From a virus, in IMG/VR virus record IMGVR_UViG_3300022562_000051, positions 44,581 to 108,580 of that record: a stretch of DNA of 64,000 nucleotides. One strand, 5' to 3'. Below the pieces are notes generated by a model that searched no databases, had not been told where the DNA came from, and saw only the letters and a program-made list of their open reading frames with translations. Positions 15,286 to 52,282 of the stretch are shown in pieces. A program made the translations under genes and the position numbers. The first letter of the stretch is position 1. Each line of letters begins with the position of its first letter.

Positions 15286-18200
15286 ATGGCAGATTTCCCC
15301 ATCAATCCTAATCCCGGCGACACCTTCGTAGCTCCTGACGGCACAGTTTGGGAGTGGGATGGTTATTCGTGGAAAACCGAAGGATCATTCGGAAGTGGTG
15401 GTATATCTGAAATTCTTGTCTCTGCTAACTCTGAATCCACCATTAATGCCAATGGCGTAAACTTTGTCAATACAGCCGACATTACCGTGGCTGTCACCGC
15501 AGGAGAAGGTGGAAATGCGAACGTAGAACTATACGTAGCGGGTACCATTGCAGGACCGCAGGGTATTCAGGGTATACAAGGTATTCAGGGTGATTTTGGT
15601 GTTCAGGGTACTCAGGGTATTGCTAATCAGGGTATTCAGGGAACCACAGGAACTCAAGGCGCAACCGGCACACAAGGTCTGCAAGGTGCGCTCGGTCCAC
15701 AGGGTATTCAGGGTATCACAGGATCGCAAGGTGCAACTGGCACACAAGGCGCAACGGGTGTTCAGGGTATTCAGGGTATTCAAGGTCGGCAAGGTACTAC
15801 TGGTACTCAGGGTGCAACAGGCACTCAGGGTGCAACTGGCGCACAAGGAACACAGGGATTACAGGGAACTACCGGTACTCAAGGCGCAACGGGAACGCAG
15901 GGTGCTACGGGCGCACAAGGTACGCAAGGTATTCAGGGTCGGCAGGGAACCACTGGCTCGCAGGGTGCAACTGGTACGCAAGGTATTCAAGGCACACAGG
16001 GACTACAAGGCACTACTGGATCGCAGGGTGCAACAGGTTCACAGGGTACCACTGGCGCACAAGGTATTCAAGGTACCACAGGCGTTCAAGGTATAACTGG
16101 TACCACTGGCGCACAAGGCGTTCAGGGTACAACTGGCTTTCAGGGTATTCAGGGATTACAGGGAACTACCGGTACTCAAGGTGCAACTGGAACACAAGGT
16201 TCTACGGGCGCACAAGGCATTCAAGGACTACAAGGCACTACTGGTACTCAGGGTGCAACAGGCACTCAGGGTGCAACTGGCGCACAAGGCGTACAGGGAA
16301 CGACAGGCGCACAAGGCGTACAGGGAACGACTGGTACACAAGGTGCGACGGGTACACAAGGTACGCAAGGTGCAACAGGCGCACAGGGAACAACTGGTTC
16401 GCAGGGTGTGCAAGGAACAACGGGTACACAGGGACTACAAGGCACCACTGGTACTCAAGGCGTACAGGGTATTCAGGGTCGGCAAGGAACAACCGGTACA
16501 CAGGGTGCAACTGGATCGCAAGGCGTACAGGGAACCACTGGTACGCAGGGTGTGCAAGGACTACAAGGTACTACCGGTACGCAAGGTGCAACTGGCACTC
16601 AAGGCACAACAGGCACTCAAGGTGTTCAGGGATTACAAGGAACTCAAGGACTACAAGGCTTTGCTGGTGATCGTTACGCAACTACTTCTGCGACCTCTCT
16701 TACGATTGGTACTGGCACAAAGAGCCTGACTGTTGCAAGTGGTCTTTCATATTCTGCTGGTCAGTCTGTTGTTATTGCTAATAGTGCCTCTGCCTTTATG
16801 GAAGGTACGGTTTCGTCCTATGATAGTGGTACTGGTGCGATGCAAGCAGAAATTGCTTCTACCACCGGTTCTGGTACGTTTAATGTTTGGGATGTAAACC
16901 TCGGTGGTGCTGCGGGTGCCGATGGTGCGCAAGGTATTCAGGGTATTCAGGGACTACAAGGCACCACTGGTACACAAGGTGCAACAGGCACACAAGGTAT
17001 TCAGGGTACGACGGGTAGCCAAGGTGTACAGGGTATTCAAGGTCGGCAGGGAACGACGGGTAGCCAAGGTACAACAGGTGCGCAAGGCGTACAGGGAACG
17101 ACAGGTACTCAGGGTGCGACAGGAACGCAAGGTGTTCAAGGCACCACTGGTACACAAGGTGCAACCGGAACTCAAGGCGTACAGGGAACGACAGGTACTC
17201 AGGGTGCGACTGGCACTCAGGGTGTACAGGGAACGACGGGTACTCAGGGTGCGACAGGCGCACAAGGCACACAAGGCATTCAAGGTCGGCAGGGAACAAC
17301 AGGCACTCAGGGTGCTACCGGTACGCAAGGTGTTCAGGGTATTCAGGGCGCTATTCTCTCCACCTCTCCCGGTGCGGATGAGCAAGTATCTTACAACGAC
17401 GGTGGCGTATTTGGTGCGTCGGCTAATCTCAAGTTCTCAACAGCCAATGGCAATGTTCTCATCGTTGGTGCTAATACAATTCGTATTAATGCCGAGAGTA
17501 ATACCGTCGAAGCCAACATTATCACTGCTAATGTAATCAACACCACCAATCTCTATATCGGCGGTGCGAACGTAGCAAATACTTTCGTAGCTAAGAAGAG
17601 TCGCCTCGGTTTCCCATATCATCCAGATACAGGATATCAGGTCACGCTTGGATATAACGATGCTGCTCGACAGGTATCCATTTATCCGGTTGCCGACGAT
17701 TTCGAAATTTACACGTTCAATAATGGACGCATGATTTTCACTGGTACACAAGCTGTTAGTCATGCTGACGTAAGCGACGAATACTTTGTTTACTTCGATG
17801 CAGATGGTGTTTTGACATGCGTAGCTTCTCCGTGGGATTTGTTGAAGCACTGTCCTGTTGCTACGATTTCGTATAATGCGGATACTAAGGAATCTGCTGC
17901 AACCCTGATGGAGTTGCACACGGCTGATCGTGATCCAGAGTTGCACTATCGTCTGCACTTTGGCGACGGAACGAAGGTCGCATCGAAGCCGGGATTGCCA
18001 ACGTATGCAGGTTATACTCTTAATGTGTCTAACACCGATGCGGTGACGTTCTCCGCGACTTCGATTCGTATCATGGACGAAGACATTCAGTTGGATACTG
18101 GTGTTCTTTCGGATGGTGGTACTTATCGTGTCATGTGGCGCAGTAATACGTCAGGTGGTCCGACTATTCAGACCTCTACGTTTGCTGTTGACTCCAAGGG

Positions 18201-20751
18201 TGTTCCATTCCTGACTGATGGTACTACGATTTGCTACAACCAGTATACGGGTGCAACGTGGCAGAAGACCGCACTTAGCACTGGTGGTCAAGGTCAGTGG
18301 GTCAACATGTATCTGTGTGCAACGACAGAAATTCAACAGTCTCGTCGTTACTTCCTCATGGCTGGTCAGAATGTTCACAATTCTCTGGCATCGGCAGTAT
18401 CCGAATCACCAAGTACAATTAGTTGGGGTGACGTAACACCAGAAGAGTTGGTCATTGTTGGTAAGTTCACATACAACGGACGATCTAGCGCAAACTCTCA
18501 GTGTCACTACGCGGAACTTCAATATGTCGAAGTCATTGACACGTACACTCGCGCTTCTATACAAACGGGCGGCGGCGGCTCGACTCAGCCGGGGGGTTCG
18601 AATACTCACATTCAGTATAATGACGATACAACATTCGGTGGTTCCGCTAATCTGACTTTTGACAAGGGTGCGGGAACTCTGGCTGTTGGTGGTGCTAAGG
18701 CAACACTGATCGCGAACTCGACAGCGAATACAGTCAATGTCGCCAATCTGTTTATCGGTACAACCAACGTCAAGTTCGAACTCGCGAATGTTGCAAATAC
18801 CGTGCGCGTGTCTGCAAACGGTGGTTCGACACTATCTGCGCGTCAACTGAATTTCGTCAACACTCAGAACGTATCTGTTGTTGTCACGGATGGAGCAGGC
18901 GCAGCCGCAGGCAATGCCAACGTTGCTTTCAGTGTAGCTACGGTTCAGGGTGCTACGGGTGCGCAAGGCATACAGGGATTGCAGGGAACCACAGGCACAC
19001 AGGGTGCAACTGGCACTCAGGGCGCAACCGGCGCACAAGGTGTTCAGGGTATTCAGGGACGGCAGGGAACCACAGGTACTCAAGGCGCAACGGGTACTCA
19101 AGGTGTGCAAGGAACAACTGGAACACAGGGTGCTACCGGTACTCAAGGTGTGCAAGGAACAACTGGAACACAGGGTGCAACCGGATCACAAGGCGTACAG
19201 GGTACTACCGGATCGCAGGGTGCTACGGGTGCGCAAGGCGTCCAAGGCACTACTGGCTCGCAAGGTGCAACTGGATCACAAGGTATTCAGGGAACTACTG
19301 GTACGCAAGGTGCGACAGGAACTCAAGGTGCAACTGGCACTCAGGGTGCAACGGGCGCACAAGGTGCAACTGGCACTCAGGGTGCAACAGGCGCACAAGG
19401 TGTTCAGGGCATTCAGGGTCGGCAGGGAACCACTGGTTCGCAGGGTGCAACCGGTACACAAGGTGCAACCGGTACACAAGGTGCGACAGGAACTCAAGGT
19501 GCAACCGGCACTCAGGGTGCTACGGGTGCGCAGGGCATTCAGGGTATTCAAGGTCGCCAAGGTACTACCGGCTCGCAAGGCGCAACGGGTACGCAAGGCA
19601 CCACTGGCGCACAAGGTGCAACAGGATCACAAGGCGCGACGGGTACACAAGGTGCAACAGGCGCACAAGGTATTCAGGGTATTCAAGGTCGCCAAGGAAC
19701 AACTGGCTCACAAGGTGCAACGGGTACACAGGGTACACAGGGTATTCAGGGAACGAGCGGTCCATCAACCACGATTACTGCAACAGAAGAATCGGCTGAC
19801 ACTACAACATATCCTGTTCTAGTCGGTGCAGTTGGTTCTGCTCAGACAGCTAGAGCAAATTCAGCTAACCTGACATTCAATGCTGCAACTGGTCAGATGA
19901 AGGTAGGTGCGATATACTTTGGAGCAGAACTTGGTGACAAGATATCCCTGTATGACAATCGTCTAAATCAAGCCAGTGGTTATAATTTCGGTGTTGAGGG
20001 TAGCTATACCTATTTCAAGGGTAATGGTGGACACCGCTTTTATATTGCGACAAATGCTGATAGTGGCGCTAGCGACTATATGGAGTTGAATACAACAACT
20101 CTAACTATCAGTCCAAACGTATATGTAACTGGTAATGTCATTACGACAGGAAACCTGTCCGTATCTAATGCTACAAGCGTCAATGTAAGAATTGGTGGAT
20201 GGAGTAGTGGTCACACAAATTGGGTGATTATCGGTAAAGGATTTGATGTTTCTAGCGGCATTCTATTCAGCCGTGGTGGAAATATTGATGCTGCGATTCA
20301 TGTAGATGGTAGTGAGAATCTAAATCTTGAAATGGGGTATGGCATTGATCCTTTAGGAAACGTTCGCTTTAGGGCAAACGGAACCACTGTTGCACAAATC
20401 ACTAATGAGGGAGCGTTTACTGCCGTAAGCAAGTCCTTCTTGATTGACCATCCAACCAAGCCGGGAATGAAGCTGCAATATGGTTCGTTGGAAGGACCGG
20501 AGAATGGTGTCTATGTTCGCGGACGTTCTTCTACTGGAATCATCACGCTTCCCGATTACTGGTGGGCGCTGGTGGATGAGGGTACGATCACTGTAAACCT
20601 AACACCAATTGCATTCTATCAGAAGTTGTTTGTCTCCATGATAAGCAATCATACGATCTATGTCATCAACGAAGATGGCGGTGGGTATGATTATTTCTTC
20701 ACCGTTTATGCGGAACGTAAGGATGTGCCGAAGCTGACCGTGGAGAGTTGA
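15286..20751 (+). CDS. Giant collagen-like tail fibre, 1821 aa
   Basis: The N-terminus [17 protein letters not shown], then [10 protein letters not shown], is a motif common at the start of phage structural proteins. Three Gly-X-Gln blocks follow (15553-16668, 16908-17349, 18945-19764). The first two are separated by a third copy of the knob module seen in the 973-aa fibre (16669-16905). Residues ~690-1090 (17350-18560) form a non-repetitive domain of unknown fold, joined by a GGGGS-like linker to a second leader module ([12 protein letters not shown]..., [11 protein letters not shown]). The C-terminal ~330 residues form a globular head ending in a [20 protein letters not shown] segment, which resembles tail-fibre C-terminal domains of T4-type phages. 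A late octamer precedes the gene. Confidence 0.87.
15553..17349 (+). repeat. Collagen-like coding blocks 1 and 2 of the giant fibre
   Basis: Block 1 is about 370 residues and block 2 about 147 residues, both Gly-X-Y with Gln or Thr in Y. The phrase [10 protein letters not shown] recurs and places the only frequent charged residue. The knob insert lies at 16669-16905. Confidence 0.9.
18945..19764 (+). repeat. Collagen-like coding block 3 of the giant fibre
   Basis: About 273 residues of Gly-X-Y. It includes a recent-looking tandem duplication: a 41-bp identical segment beginning GGTACTCAAGGTGTGCAAGG at 19093 and again at 19138, a 45-bp (15-codon) period. Confidence 0.9.
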
Positions 20752-44203: not shown

Positions 44204-44731
44204 ATGGCTAAAACAAATTATATTGATAACAAGAAATTCCTAAAGGAAATGGTGACTTACAGAAGAGCCGTCCGCAAGGCGAAACGCGAGGGACTGCCGA
44301 AACCGCGCATCCCCGAATACGTGGGCGAGTGCTTCATGAAGATCGCGGAGAACCTGTCACATAAACCTAATTTCTTGTCCTACACCTTTCGCGAGGAAAT
44401 GATAAGTGATGCTATAGAGAACTGCGTCATGTACGCGGATAACTTTAATCCAGCGAAATCCAAGAATCCATTTGCCTATTTTACTCAGATCGTGTATTAT
44501 GCTTTCTTGAGGCGCATTCAACGCGAGAAAAAGCAGTTGTATGTGAAGTATAAGTCTACTGAGATACATGGAGTCTTAGACGAGTTTGACCAGTTGGACG
44601 ATGGCGACGGAAATAATCGGCAGTTCGAAATGTACGAGAACATCAGTGAGTTCATTCAGAACTTCGAAGATGCCAAGGCTCGCAAGAAAGCGAAGCAGAA
44701 GTTGAACCTCGACAAGTTTATAGATGACTAA
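44204..44731 (+). CDS. gp55: gp55-like late sigma factor, 175 aa
   Basis: T4 gp55 is a minimal sigma that directs host RNA polymerase to TATAAATA promoters, with the sliding clamp as activator. The N-terminal helix-rich region, the SYTFREEMISDAIENCVMYA and FNPAKSKNPFAYFTQIVYYA segments (sigma region-2-like), then RRIQREKKQLYVKYKS match T4-type gp55. Size agrees with T4 gp55 (185 aa). No obvious Shine-Dalgarno precedes the ATG. Position between uvsW and gp47 fits, as do the late octamers throughout the window. Confidence 0.9.
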   Translation: MAKTNYIDNKKFLKEMVTYRRAVRKAKREGLPKPRIPEYVGECFMKIAENLSHKPNFLSYTFREEMISDAIENCVMYADNFNPAKSKNPFAYFTQIVYYAFLRRIQREKKQLYVKYKSTEIHGVLDEFDQLDDGDGNNRQFEMYENISEFIQNFEDAKARKKAKQKLNLDKFIDD

Positions 44732-47618: not shown

Positions 47619-48196
47619 GCAAAAAGATTAAGTTCGTAGATGGCAACATGGTCGAGTACGAAATCCTCAATCTGGTGGATCAGTACAATTCCATTTTGCG
47701 TGAGCCGACCAAGGAAGTAGACTTTGATCAGGTGCCGGGGCAACAGGTGGCTTACCTAGCCATGTCTCTGATGGAATCGCTCAAGCATCATCAGGGCATG
47801 GGATTGTCCGCGAATCAGGTTGGACTCGCCGTGCGCATGTGTGCAATTGATGTGGGTGATGAAGGCAAGATTTACTGCCTGATCAATCCTCGCATTCTTG
47901 CACAGTCCGAGACAATGCAGAAAGTCAACGAGGGATGCCTGTCGTTCCCCGGTTTGTTCCTCACCATCGAAAGACCTGATTGGGTTGAGATTGAGTTTCA
48001 GGCGGCGAACGGTGACAAACTGACCAAGCGATTCGAAGGTATCTACGCAACGTGCGTTTTGCATGAGTTGGATCACCTTGACGGGATCACATTCACTACT
48101 CGCGTGTCGAGCGTCAAGCTGGACATGGCACGGCGCAAAGTCAAGCAAAACCTTAAGAAAATGAAGAAGATAAGAGAGCATCTCGCAAGTGCTTGA
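47615..48196 (+). CDS. def: Peptide deformylase, 193 aa
   Basis: Removes the N-formyl group from new proteins using a metal ion. All three family motifs are present: GLSANQVG (residues 63-70, motif 1), EGCLSFPG (106-113, with metal-ligand Cys108) and HELDH (150-154). Phage deformylases are known in some T4-type marine phages. Overlaps the gp46-like gene by ATGA, so it belongs to the recombination operon. Its stop codon lies inside the upstream promoter element of the next gene. Confidence 0.95.
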   Translation: MSKKIKFVDGNMVEYEILNLVDQYNSILREPTKEVDFDQVPGQQVAYLAMSLMESLKHHQGMGLSANQVGLAVRMCAIDVGDEGKIYCLINPRILAQSETMQKVNEGCLSFPGLFLTIERPDWVEIEFQAANGDKLTKRFEGIYATCVLHELDHLDGITFTTRVSSVKLDMARRKVKQNLKKMKKIREHLASA

Positions 48197-48245
48197 TTCT
48201 TAAAGGCTTTTGGGGGTTGCTTTTTGCTTGTAAATACCCCATACT
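48185..48245 (+). promoter_or_regulatory. Sigma70-like promoter with upstream GTAAGTnnTTGATT-type element (VWA gene)
   Basis: Upstream element GCAAGTGCTTGATT at 48185-48198, an 18-nt gap, -35 TTGCTT at 48217-48222, a 17-nt spacer, and -10 CATACT at 48240-48245. The start region reads GGTAATACAGTA. The same element and gap occur at two other promoters, 50793 and 62162. Confidence 0.7.
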
Positions 48246-48266: not shown

Positions 48267-50606
48267 ATGTCGAACACGCTCATTCAAACGAAGTCAATGC
48301 TCGCGAAGCTACTCGCGGGTGAAAACATCAATGTCGTTCATCAAAGCGGCATTTCCACGGCATCGTTCGACCTGACTGCGCGGACCATGTATCTCCCGAT
48401 ATGGGAAGACATGGACGGCGACATTTACGATATGCTGACCGGTCATGAAGTCGGTCATGCCAAGTGGACCCCGCAAGAGGGTTGGCACAATGCGATTGAC
48501 GAGCGCGGCAGGAAATTCAAGTCCTGCATGAACGTCATCGAAGATGCGCGAATCGAAAAACTAATCAAGCGCAAGTATCCCGGTCTAGCTAAGTCCTTCG
48601 CGAATGCCTATCGCACTCTGTACGAGCGCGATTTCTTCGGCATCAAGAAACTCAAAGACCTTTCCAAGCTGAATCTCATTGACCGAATCAACATTCACTG
48701 CAAGGTGGGTGCGCATGTTATCGTCCCGTTTACGGATGACGAGCGCAACATCGTGCGCGAGGTTGAAAAGGCTGAGACTTGGGAACAGGTCATGGACATT
48801 TCCGTTCGCGTGTTCGATTATGCGAAGAAGGAAGATTCCAGCAAGATCAATTCGCTGGATGATCTGACCGAAAAGTTGCTCAAGGAATACGCCGAAAAGC
48901 TGAACGAAGAGTTCGAAGACTCTGATGAAGAGTCGGATGGTGGCGATTTCGATTTCGATGATGAAGAGTCGGAAGACCTTTCGATTGACGGTAATGCGCA
49001 GTCGGAGTCTGACGATTCTGAAAAGACCGAAGACGAGGAAGGAAACACCGAAACCAAGTCTAAGGGTGGCAATGCGTCCGACGATTCCGAGGAAGACAAG
49101 GAAGAGGAAGACGAGGACAATGCTGAATCCGGCAAGGCTGGCGGCAATAACGGTCCTGCGGCTGACCTTCCTGATGAAGAGAAGGCAGAAGAGGAAGAGC
49201 CTGAGTCTATTACGGATCGCATTTTCCGTGATCGCGAACAGGAACTTTGCGTAGGCAACGTTGAAGTCTACACGTACACGCTTCCCGAGCCGATTCTGGA
49301 AAATATCGTCGTTCCCGGCGAAGCGGTTGTGAAGCAGTTCCACATTGCTTACGATGCTTCGAATCGTCGCGGACTGCCGATTGCGCAGAATTGCATCAAG
49401 ACGTTCGAACAGAATAATGGCAAGTTCATTAACATGCTTGTCAAGGAATTCGAAATGCGCAAGAATGCCTCGCAGTATGCGCGGCAGCAGACAGCGCGGA
49501 CTGGTGAGTTGGACATGTCCAAGCTGCACCTTTATCGGTTCAGCAATGACCTGTTCAAGAAAGTGACTGTTGTCCCGAAGGGCAAGAGCCACGGTCTGAT
49601 CATGTACGTGGATATGTCCGGTTCCATGAGCAACGTGTTTGGTGCGACGATGGAACAGGCTCTTATTCTTGCGGTCTTCTGTCGCAAGGTTGGCATTCCG
49701 TTTGACGTTTACGGCTTTTCGGATGGTGCTGAGAATATCCACGTTATGGTTGCGGACGGCACACTGCCGAATAACTTTGGTCTTGGTGGCAAGTTCAAGA
49801 AATTTGGACAGGCTGACTACACGATCCATGACAAGGGTTTCCATCTGCGGCACCTGATTGGTTCCAAGATGAATAAGCAGACTTATCGCAAGGCTATGGA
49901 AATGCTCGCGGTTGTCTCTTACAACTATTCGTACAATCGTTACGCTACAAACTACCTTGATTGGGAACGTGCTGGTTTCAATCTGCACGGTACTCCGTTC
50001 TCGCAGACGTTGCTGGCTTCGCGCCCGATGATCGAACGGTTCAAGTCGCAGAATCATCTTGATATCGTCAACGTTATCTACCTGACCGATGGCGAAGGTG
50101 GCGGCTGCTTCTCGTTTGATAAGATTGAGCGCATTCCCTATTACATGCAGCCGGTCAGCAAGAAGGATCGCAAGATTCGCAAGGTCTGGATGACTGATTC
50201 CAAGACCAAGAGGCGGCTTGAGTTTAATCCTGACGAGTGGGATCAGCAGTCGCGCATCACGCAGTTTGTTGGTGAAGTGACTGGTTGCAAGCACATTGCT
50301 TATTACATCTGCTCTTCGCGTGAGTGCAAGCAGGCGTTGAATGCATACGGCACCAATGCGGCGGGTTCGGTGGTTCTTGAGGCTGAGAAGTCTTACAAGA
50401 ATTACAAGTATTTCGCGGTCCCGCATCTTGGCTATCACAAGTATTTCTACATTGCGATGCCTAGCCAGAACGTGTCAGATGACGATTACGAACTGGATGA
50501 CAAAATGACTGCGAAGCGCATGGCGCGTATTTTCAGCAATGCGCAGGATGCGAAGCGCAAGAATCGAATGCTCATTACAGAGTTTACACAGGAGATTGCA
50601 GCGTGA
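48267..50606 (+). CDS. CobT-like protein: HExxH metallopeptidase-like domain plus VWA domain, 779 aa
   Basis: An N-terminal zincin-like domain has HEVGH (residues 60-64) and an NVIEDARIE helix (89-97) whose Glu could complete zinc binding. A long acidic low-complexity linker follows (about 205-320). The C-terminal VWA domain has the MIDAS motif DMSGSMS (449-455) and later LTDGEGGG. Cobaltochelatase CobT and other VWA partners of MoxR ATPases share this layout. Phages usually annotate such genes as cobT, but no other cobalamin genes are nearby, so a chelatase role is doubtful; target remodelling with the AAA+ partner at 50888 is more plausible. The gene has its own promoter. Confidence 0.82.
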   Translation: MSNTLIQTKSMLAKLLAGENINVVHQSGISTASFDLTARTMYLPIWEDMDGDIYDMLTGHEVGHAKWTPQEGWHNAIDERGRKFKSCMNVIEDARIEKLIKRKYPGLAKSFANAYRTLYERDFFGIKKLKDLSKLNLIDRINIHCKVGAHVIVPFTDDERNIVREVEKAETWEQVMDISVRVFDYAKKEDSSKINSLDDLTEKLLKEYAEKLNEEFEDSDEESDGGDFDFDDEESEDLSIDGNAQSESDDSEKTEDEEGNTETKSKGGNASDDSEEDKEEEDEDNAESGKAGGNNGPAADLPDEEKAEEEEPESITDRIFRDREQELCVGNVEVYTYTLPEPILENIVVPGEAVVKQFHIAYDASNRRGLPIAQNCIKTFEQNNGKFINMLVKEFEMRKNASQYARQQTARTGELDMSKLHLYRFSNDLFKKVTVVPKGKSHGLIMYVDMSGSMSNVFGATMEQALILAVFCRKVGIPFDVYGFSDGAENIHVMVADGTLPNNFGLGGKFKKFGQADYTIHDKGFHLRHLIGSKMNKQTYRKAMEMLAVVSYNYSYNRYATNYLDWERAGFNLHGTPFSQTLLASRPMIERFKSQNHLDIVNVIYLTDGEGGGCFSFDKIERIPYYMQPVSKKDRKIRKVWMTDSKTKRRLEFNPDEWDQQSRITQFVGEVTGCKHIAYYICSSRECKQALNAYGTNAAGSVVLEAEKSYKNYKYFAVPHLGYHKYFYIAMPSQNVSDDDYELDDKMTAKRMARIFSNAQDAKRKNRMLITEFTQEIAA

Positions 50607-50800
50607 AGTTGTTTAGTTTGAATCGCAATCAGAATTGGCACAATTGGTTCGCGTGGCGTCCAATTTTTGTTGACTCTTATTCTAAGTATGGTTTTGAATG
50701 CAAGGAACTGGTCTGGCTGGAAACAATCGAACGGCGAGCCTGTTTCTCCGGTATGGACGGTAGTTTTATCTGCTATTTGTACGCCAAAAAGCCTAAGTGA
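50603..50800 (+). CDS. Small hypothetical protein, 65 aa
   Basis: GTG start overlapping the VWA gene stop, with an AGGAG ribosome site 9 nt upstream. Trp/Phe-rich N-terminus (FSLNRNQNWHNWFAWRPIF) and C-terminal CYLYAKKPK. No family recognised. Lies between the VWA gene and the AAA+ gene, on the VWA transcript, so it may act with them. Confidence 0.6.
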   Translation: MKLFSLNRNQNWHNWFAWRPIFVDSYSKYGFECKELVWLETIERRACFSGMDGSFICYLYAKKPK

Positions 50801-50853
50801 TTGATTTTGTTGGGTTTCGGGATATTGCTTTTTGCCGAAACATCCTTTACAAT
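50793..50853 (+). promoter_or_regulatory. Sigma70-like promoter with upstream element (AAA+ gene)
   Basis: Element CTAAGTGATTGATT at 50793-50806, an 18-nt gap, -35 TTGCTT at 50825-50830, a 17-nt spacer, -10 TACAAT at 50848-50853. Same architecture as the VWA gene promoter. A dyad at 50855-50876 follows directly. Confidence 0.72.
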
Positions 50854-50854
50854 G

Positions 50855-50876
50855 ACAGTATAGTTGGATATACTGT
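50855..50876 (+). promoter_or_regulatory. Perfect 8-bp inverted repeat at the transcription start of the AAA+ gene
   Basis: Arms ACAGTATA and TATACTGT separated by GTTGGA. It lies immediately downstream of the -10 box and ends 11 nt before the ATG at 50888. It could be an operator or a 5' RNA hairpin that affects ribosome access. Confidence 0.6.
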
Positions 50877-50887
50877 GAGAAGTGACT

Positions 50888-52282
50888 ATGGCACGTAGAC
50901 CTAATTTCGATATGGAAGATCAGAAGACGTTCATTCAGGACTTGATTGACGAGTATGGTGATACCGTCACTTCGAAGCAAATCCTTGACTTCGCGGAAGC
51001 GAAGGGTTTGCCGGTTCCGTATTTCCTCTTGCGCGACGAGCGGAAGAAGATCGGACGCGGCAAGTATCGCTTGTGTTCCCGCGCTTCGCTCTTGAAGCGT
51101 GGCACGATTTCCCATTCGATTGCCGACGCGCTTGATCAGCAAGACGCGCAGGAAGTCGCACCGCAGAATGCCATGCCGCAGACTGCGCAAGTTATCAATC
51201 TGGCTTCCCGTCGCGCCATGAACGTGACCGAGAGTTTCGTTCCCGACAAGCTGGATACATACGTTCCTTTTGGTTTCTACAAAGACCTTAAGAACATTCT
51301 CAATTCCAAGGCGTTCTATCCTATCTACATCACCGGTCTGTCGGGCAACGGCAAGACGCTGATGGTCGAACAGGTTTGCGCCGCGCTTGGTCGCGAGCTA
51401 ATTCGCGTTAACATCACCAAGCTTACGGATGAAACGGACCTGATCGGTTCGTATGAACTCATTGACGGCAACACGGTTCGCCGCGAGGGTCCGGTCATTA
51501 CAGCAATGCGGCGCGGTGCCGTACTGTTGCTGGATGAAACCGACTACGGTACCGAAACCCTGTTGTGCCTCAATTCCATTCTGGAAGGCAAGCCGTACTT
51601 CGACAAGAAAACTGGCGAAGTCATTCACGCTGCACCGGGATTCACGGTCATTGCGACTGCGAACACCAAGGGTAAGGGTGACGCGGAAGGTCGCTTCATT
51701 GGCGCGAACGTGCTGAACGAAGCTTTCCTTGAGCGGTTTGCCGTGACGGTTGAACAGGAATATCCTGATACCAAGGTTGAGCGTAGCATTCTGTCGAAGA
51801 ACTTCGACAAGTTTGGTTGCGCCGACGATCAGTTTGTGGATCGTCTGGTCACTTGGGCAGACGTTATTCGCAAGTCCTTTACCGAGGGTGCGGTGGATGA
51901 ACTGATTTCCACGCGCCGCCTTGTTCACATTGCGAAAGCTTTCAGCATCTTCAAGGATCGCATGAAGGCAATCGAACTGTGCTTGAATCGGTTTGACTCC
52001 GAAACCAAGATCGCGTTTGTTGACCTGTACACCAAGGTTGACTCGGATGCGCTTGGCAAGTCGGAACTGCCGGAAGATGCGTCACTGTCGGATGTTGCCA
52101 AGGCTCTTTCCGAAGAATACGGGCAGGACGTTAAGATTTACCAGAATCCCGAAAAGGGCGTGATCGTGGTTTCTTCGCATGGTCGCGATACCGAAATCAC
52201 TCAGGTTCAAGTGAAGCAGGCTGCTAATGTCAATTCACTTCTGCGCGATACGGTTGATCGTCACAACTTCTTGGCACCGTAA
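50888..52282 (+). CDS. CobS/MoxR-type AAA+ ATPase, 464 aa
   Basis: The ATG at 50888 is preferred over GTG at 50882. The N-terminal ~65 residues (IQDLIDEYGDTVTSKQILDF) look like a small helical DNA- or partner-binding domain. The AAA+ core has Walker A GLSGNGKT (about 149-156), Walker B VLLLDETD (about 211-218), sensor-1 ATANT and a FLERF arginine-finger region. MoxR/CobS ATPases act on or through VWA-domain partners; the VWA/HExxH protein encoded just upstream is the obvious partner. Cyanophage-type 'CobS' genes are relatives. Confidence 0.85.
   Translation: MARRPNFDMEDQKTFIQDLIDEYGDTVTSKQILDFAEAKGLPVPYFLLRDERKKIGRGKYRLCSRASLLKRGTISHSIADALDQQDAQEVAPQNAMPQTAQVINLASRRAMNVTESFVPDKLDTYVPFGFYKDLKNILNSKAFYPIYITGLSGNGKTLMVEQVCAALGRELIRVNITKLTDETDLIGSYELIDGNTVRREGPVITAMRRGAVLLLDETDYGTETLLCLNSILEGKPYFDKKTGEVIHAAPGFTVIATANTKGKGDAEGRFIGANVLNEAFLERFAVTVEQEYPDTKVERSILSKNFDKFGCADDQFVDRLVTWADVIRKSFTEGAVDELISTRRLVHIAKAFSIFKDRMKAIELCLNRFDSETKIAFVDLYTKVDSDALGKSELPEDASLSDVAKALSEEYGQDVKIYQNPEKGVIVVSSHGRDTEITQVQVKQAANVNSLLRDTVDRHNFLAP

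Follow-up and report, generated by a model that had tools for sequence, protein, structure and literature searches.

Tailed phages of cyanobacteria carry, as core genes, a pair that encodes a protein with a von Willebrand factor A (VWA) domain and a MoxR-type AAA+ ATPase. In S-PM2 and P-SSM2 the two genes occupy the same place and are named peptidase (T4-GC146) and CobS (T4-GC150), the S-PM2 homologue being annotated as 'Peptidase, T4-LIKE GC 146', and in DSL-LC02 the same pair is annotated as peptidase and ATPase. Viral metagenomic studies routinely class phage cobS and cobT among the auxiliary metabolic genes for vitamin B12. In one study the peptidase label was called a mistake, and viral CobST was proposed to hijack the host CobN (PMC8651126); PMC2984593 likewise refers to a boost of B12. 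Here we analyzed a further member of this group, located in a 64-kb stretch of virus DNA (positions 44,581 to 108,580 of IMG/VR record IMGVR_UViG_3300022562_000051; hereafter the window, meaning the whole stretch) within a virus contig of 172,580 bases. The B12 role assigned to the pair is probably mistaken, and we consider it somewhat probable that the pair is a MoxR–VWA remodelling machine of the replication phase whose target is perhaps also cut.

The VWA gene and the ATPase gene are sited between the genes for peptide deformylase and the sliding clamp, and comprise the following features (window coordinates; open reading frame, ORF; predicted local distance difference test, pLDDT):

48267..50606, + strand: metallopeptidase-like/VWA protein, 779 amino acids; ORF matching phrog_459 'peptidase' over its full length (residues 7–778, E = 1.5e-177) and T4-GC146; distant CobT homologue
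48444..48458, + strand: HEVGH, residues 60–64; predicted metal-binding/catalytic motif
48531..48557, + strand: NVIEDARIE helix, residues 89–97; includes the candidate third-ligand or second-shell residues N89 and D93, which track HExxH
48909..49190, + strand: acidic linker, approximately residues 215–308, predicted to be disordered (sequence; pLDDT <50 over 215–308)
49371..49568, + strand: long helix and conserved segment ahead of the MIDAS, residues 369–434; helix 369–412 in the model, KEFEMRK...TG.LD..KLH.Y in the alignment
49611..50090, + strand: VWA MIDAS, D449-x-S451-x-S453, T576 and D608; invariant alignment columns
50603..50800, + strand: small ORF between both genes, 65 amino acids, GTG start; weak phrog_14828 match
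50888..52282, + strand: MoxR/CobS-clade AAA+ ATPase, 464 amino acids; phrog_249 'CobS/porphyrin biosynthesis' (E = 2.3e-107), T4-GC150, AAA_5 (E = 1.9e-20)
50912..51070, + strand: predicted winged-helix N-terminal domain of the ATPase, residues 9–61; model, pLDDT mostly >90
51335..51358, + strand: ATPase Walker A, GLSGNGKT; invariant or near-invariant columns
51446..51487, + strand: ATPase helix-2-insert beta-hairpin, residues 187–200; strands 187–192 and 195–200 in the model
51524..51538, + strand: ATPase Walker B, LLLDE; D216 and E217 invariant

An initial annotation, made from the sequence alone, had described these two ORFs as a VWA protein with HEVGH and a MIDAS, paired with a MoxR-type ATPase. 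Both ORFs stand, with the ATG at 50888, two codons past the GTG at 50882, as the better start of the ATPase, and the motifs proved invariant or nearly so in our alignments. The VWA protein runs from HEVGH through NVIEDARIE and the acidic linker to a complete MIDAS, in which DMSGS occupies residues 449–453 and T576 and D608 are the likely further residues. A Pfam scan returned a sub-threshold CobT match and nothing else, and the VWA profile found no match when solved structures were searched by sequence.

The metal site was followed in two groups of relatives. In an alignment of 70 T4-like relatives, H60, E61, H64, N89, E92, D93, R95 and the MIDAS residues are invariant; HExxH and the MIDAS were absent from the fetch patterns, while part of the set was fetched by a pattern with N-V-[IC]-E-D, so the conservation of N89, E92 and D93 there is biased. 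A second, divergent lineage, made up of Rhizobium, Pseudomonas and SSU5-type phages, was fetched by patterns with neither HExxH nor the MIDAS, and its counts include seven loci from named phages read by hand. The conservation check proposed in the initial annotation turned out positive, with HExxH in 70/70 T4-like relatives and in 73 of the 84 full-length proteins of the second lineage, where the MIDAS is present in 87/87. A profile comparison aligns both lineages across the N-terminal domain, HEVGH on HEVGH (E = 1.6e-18). By comparison, none of 28 aligned genuine CobTs (TIGR01651 matches above the cut-off from alphaproteobacterial genomes) has HExxH at the homologous position, where the profile alignment places residues such as 'ADAYALR'; a single chance HEPAH lies elsewhere in an over-long reading.

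Asp93 follows the histidines closely. It is found in all 143 HExxH carriers (70/70 T4-like and 73/73 second lineage), whereas nine of the 11 second-lineage proteins scored as HExxH-less have Ser at this position; of the remaining two, L395 is N-terminally truncated and BUCTxx99 retains D93. Genuine CobTs mostly have Gln or Thr at position 93 and retain E92 in nearly all cases. The later Glu-containing helix of the initial annotation is thus present, but the Glu is not the telling residue, since E92 persists even without HExxH and it is Asp93 that tracks the motif. E61, too, is retained in second-lineage proteins that lack the two histidines. A joint loss of H60, H64 and D93 is what a shared metal site predicts, and the co-loss suggests that such a site is real. 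The losses of HExxH amount to few evolutionary events, however, the nickie-like clade probably representing one. A Pseudomonas-type clade (nine loci) keeps the MIDAS and the ATPase while HExxH and D93 are replaced; by its residues, this clade is a natural pseudo-peptidase control.

The partner gene encodes a MoxR AAA+ ATPase of the helix-2-insert clade, as its motifs, hairpin and fold demonstrate. Walker A, Walker B, the sensor-1 Asn and the arginine residues are kept in an alignment of 46 relatives, and the model (mean pLDDT 84.8) contains the MoxR helix-2-insert hairpin. Foldseek placed CbbQ and NorQ as the closest folds (E down to 8.9e-20), and a sequence search of solved structures gave Midasin and CobS as the best matches. 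The N-terminal domain, with a confidently modelled helix-strand-helix-helix-strand-strand order, is predicted to be winged-helix-like, and a C-terminal extension is missing from the few annotated phage homologues aligned. With its complete MIDAS and the adjacent MoxR gene, the 779-residue protein is, by sequence, a VWA partner of the MoxR type. Staphylococcus Kayvirus genomes carry a related ATPase with no CobT-type partner detected; they were rejected as instances of the same pair, as the JA1 record gave no CobT profile match.

The pairing recurs in both groups of relatives. The VWA family occurs in 463 records of the phage collection, and the counts by organism name agree for both genes: Synechococcus 365, 'Cyanophage' 61 and Prochlorococcus 24. 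All 87 second-lineage loci have a CobS-like ATPase gene nearby, and T4-like loci with enough flank have it close downstream, with some exceptions. The surroundings of the pair are also recurrent. In the contig they include T4-like replication genes:

44204 (window): late sigma factor, family profile match
44845 (window): SbcD/gp47
45906 (window): SbcC/gp46
47615 (window): peptide deformylase, profile matches
54289 (window): sliding clamp
56272 and 57583 (window): clamp loader subunits

Of the 33 T4-like loci whose flanks are long enough, 29 have gp46 and gp47 near the pair and 27 have gp45, and in the second lineage DnaE is near it in 79/87, a ligase in 60/87 and a primase in 46/87. The pair comes after polymerase, UvsX and primase/helicase in DLP6, and before primase, helicase and polymerase in ICP2. 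This neighbourhood suggests timing and process, not substrate. Elsewhere in the window (15286–20751) lies a gene for a very large (1821 amino acids), repeat-rich, tail-fibre-like protein. The record of Pseudoalteromonas phage XG4, which is unverified, shows VWA and ATPase genes that are apparently frame-split. Most matches in the bacterial and archaeal genome collection (L104–L132) lie on contigs of metagenome-assembled genomes from many phyla, some with phage gene neighbours; these are probably prophages or phage contigs that ended up in the bins of unrelated genomes. A Methylomicrobium genome (L133, 1755–7710, and L135) encodes CobT-like VWA proteins that contain HEAAH, one of them preceded by a MoxR gene, in an apparent mobile region outside recognized phages; a viral search with this homologue found no relative.

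The two genes also share their upstream signals, as the initial annotation had pointed out:

48187..48245, + strand: VWA gene promoter; element AAGTGCTTGATT..., TTGCTT (48217), N17, CATACT (48240); boxes assigned by eye
50795..50853, + strand: ATPase gene promoter; element AAGTGATTGATT..., TTGCTT (50825), N17, TACAAT (50848); boxes assigned by eye

The window contains exactly two copies of the sequence AAGTGNTTGATT, one at 48187 upstream of the VWA gene and one at 50795 upstream of the ATPase gene; TTTACA-17-TATACT at 50846 is an alternative promoter for the ATPase gene. The core AAGTNNTTGATT is found eight times in the whole contig, always on the + strand (window 48187, 50795, 62065 and 62126; genome 3979, 10700, 154965 and 167010), against 0.5 expected from a mononucleotide shuffle, and the element is therefore the mark of a class of promoters that extends beyond the pair. 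In the nearest relatives it is conserved upstream of both genes, reading AAGTTRTTGATTYTATTAGRGTTTTT, and larger relative contigs contain it 9–11 times on one strand, with 0 occurrences of the reversed control pattern. In phage DLP6, published promoters precede the peptidase gene and the ORF that comes ahead of cobS (PMC5349666), and the DLP6 sequence at these promoters contains the inverted core AAATCAACGACTTA. On this evidence the pair belongs to a small promoter class, for which the sigma70-like promoter and the upstream element would imply early or middle timing. The element, which is conserved, 26 bp long and phage-specific, stands ahead of a sigma70-like promoter, sometimes in tandem, in the contig as well as in relatives L020–L029 and L167–L246. 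In many of these relatives the -10 box (xATAAT) ends approximately six bases ahead of the ATG, so that the mRNAs would be leaderless; a literature search on leaderless phage promoters found no paper, and the published pelagiphage transcriptome leaves out HTVC008M.

A remodelling machine of the MoxR–VWA type is likely because the structural and sequence relatives of the ATPase (CbbQ, NorQ, Midasin and CobS) are ring motors with VWA partners or domains. The intact ATPase motifs, the pairing, the shared element, the HExxH/D93 co-loss and the replication-gene neighbourhood point the same way. A replication-phase role is moderately likely, and the chance that the VWA protein is an active peptidase, given its motif, is about even. 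Cryo-electron microscopy of NorQD (PMC13036017) showed the VWA partner bound to the ring, a finger inserted in the pore and the C-terminus resting on the post-sensor-1 loop, and revealed that the mechanism is one of twisting; this arrangement may serve as a model for the working of the phage pair. Produced from its own sigma70-like, element-bearing promoters, the ATPase would assemble as a ring, to which the VWA protein would bind via its VWA domain; by analogy with NorD (PMC13036017), residues 369–434 are a candidate for the ring-contacting part. The MIDAS and the N-terminal HExxH domain would hold the target protein, ATP hydrolysis would pull or twist it, and machines with an intact HExxH may cut it as well. 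We infer that the machine acts during the DNA replication/recombination phase, with a protein of that machinery or an obstructing host protein as its most likely target.

According to the proposal described above, the pair would instead supply genuine motor subunits of a cobaltochelatase, cooperating with the CobN of the host to raise the B12 supply for nucleotide synthesis. We regard this as quite unlikely, despite the distant homology of both proteins to CobT and CobS. The VWA protein reaches 20.8 bits against TIGR01651 (CobT equivalog, cut-off 759; genuine alphaproteobacterial CobTs score up to 953) and the ATPase 85.8 bits against TIGR01650 (CobS equivalog, cut-off 558.55), both far below the cut-offs, and the phage proteins retain the HExxH that is missing from genuine CobT. 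These scores make the pair homologues of cobaltochelatase CobT/CobS, not members, in agreement with the initial annotation, which had set it apart from cobaltochelatase despite the cobT/cobS naming. CobN (TIGR02257) gave no match in the contig, in HTVC008M or in an E. coli control genome, yet Escherichia phages such as Cyrano encode a CobT-like gene. On the bacterial side, 20 of 40 alphaproteobacterial genomes with a CobT match gave no CobN match, and a Caulobacter control likewise had CobT without CobN; some of these genomes may be incomplete, or bacterial CobST may have a second role. A class I ribonucleotide reductase small subunit is present in nine of the ten named pair-carrying phages checked, ICP2 being the exception, so most need no B12 for the nucleotide-reduction step. 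The earlier statement that no cobalamin genes are near is correct locally, but the contig encodes an adenosylcobalamin-dependent RTPR-type ribonucleotide reductase approximately 50 kb downstream of the pair (genome 144609–146504; 330.3 bits, slightly below the cut-off of 340.05; PDB 1l1l, E = 2.9e-42). A phrog_367 ribonucleotide reductase occurs in the contig and in three relatives, and none of these four contigs yielded a class I small subunit, which speaks for the proposal; the CobN-hijack explanation is thus weakened in general, and less so for the window phage.

Cleavage itself is a separate matter, and several observations weigh against the machine as we propose it. The VWA model matched no PDB entry below E = 1e-3: a whole-chain fold search gave VWA-type matches only, the best being the Midasin MIDAS and the NorD VWA (E of only 2e-3 to 3e-3), and for the N-terminal domain no metallopeptidase structure was retrieved, so it is the motif by itself that argues for the name 'peptidase'. 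The nickie-like clade lost HExxH and retains the MIDAS and ATPase; proteolysis is therefore not universal, and cleavage may not be the shared function. In CRP-810 the pair adjoins a DNA-repair gene, with no replication cassette within the 12 kb read. Phages also pack early genes together, so the neighbourhood says little about the substrate. A pure remodelling or cofactor-insertion chaperone like NorQD, CbbQO and Midasin, in which HExxH binds metal structurally or delivers it without cleavage, is a possible explanation, though not a probable one. The closest structural and sequence relatives of the pair are non-proteolytic (PMC13036017), and the HExxH-less phage clade fits it, but E61, at the general-base position, is invariant together with both histidines in the T4-like set and would be needless in a purely structural site, an argument weakened in turn by the retention of E61 in histidine-less second-lineage proteins. 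Very unlikely, in our view, is a host-takeover or counter-defence protease that, early in infection, would destroy a protein of the host, be it an RNA polymerase factor, a nucleoid protein or a defence complex. The sigma70-like promoters, with their phage-specific element upstream, would suit such a protein, but a defence-family search gave nothing for the VWA protein and weak IetA matches for the ATPase, the pair sits among replication genes and not among small host-takeover genes, and its core status in cyanophages of many hosts suggests a conserved phage-internal target.

The HExxH/Asp93 co-loss, the missing CobN and the replication-gene neighbourhood together give a concrete reason to doubt a B12 role, and HExxH/Asp93 offers a simple residue test to sort phage 'cobT' genes. 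Should the pair prove to be a remodeller, nearly all T4-like cyanophages would carry such a machine of the replication phase, a question testable by point mutations. A wider scheme, which we rate as fairly unlikely, would have an ATP-driven MoxR ring with a metalloprotease–VWA adaptor remodel or cut replisome or DNA-bound proteins in several tailed-phage lineages, as a counterpart of Midasin or of the metalloprotease-unfoldase pairs by which DNA is cleared of proteins; bacterial CobT would be a relative whose active site was lost and which took on metal chelation instead.

Among known systems, Midasin/Rea1 combines an AAA+ ring with a MIDAS domain, as the phage pair does, and was the top match to both the ATPase sequence and the MIDAS structure. 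It is one giant eukaryotic chain that remodels pre-ribosomes, whereas the phage machine would consist of two proteins and has an HExxH domain. NorQ/NorD and CbbQ/CbbO share with the pair the MoxR ATPase fold, the helix-2 insert and the VWA partner. HExxH is invariant in the T4-like phage set, while no mention of it was found in the NorQD literature searched, and we know of no nitric oxide reductase or Rubisco target of the phage pair. CobT/CobS (TIGR01651/TIGR01650; structures 9uka and 9ujv) have a homologous ATPase and the same layout of N-terminal domain, acidic linker and C-terminal VWA, but CobT, unlike the phage protein, lacks HExxH and D93, the phage scores fall far below the equivalog cut-offs, and the contig is without CobN. 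The CobST-like pairs of Rhizobium, Pseudomonas and SSU5-type phages again join a VWA protein, mostly with HExxH, to a MoxR ATPase and lie beside dnaE; they differ in the ATPase N-terminus and in the nickie-like members that lost HExxH. Closest is the cyanophage core pair (phrog_459/phrog_249), with the same families in the same order and the same place between gp46 and gp45; the window VWA protein is 29–34% identical to its cyanophage homologues in pairwise alignment, and the window pair is distinguished by its own promoter element and by the C-terminal extension on its ATPase.

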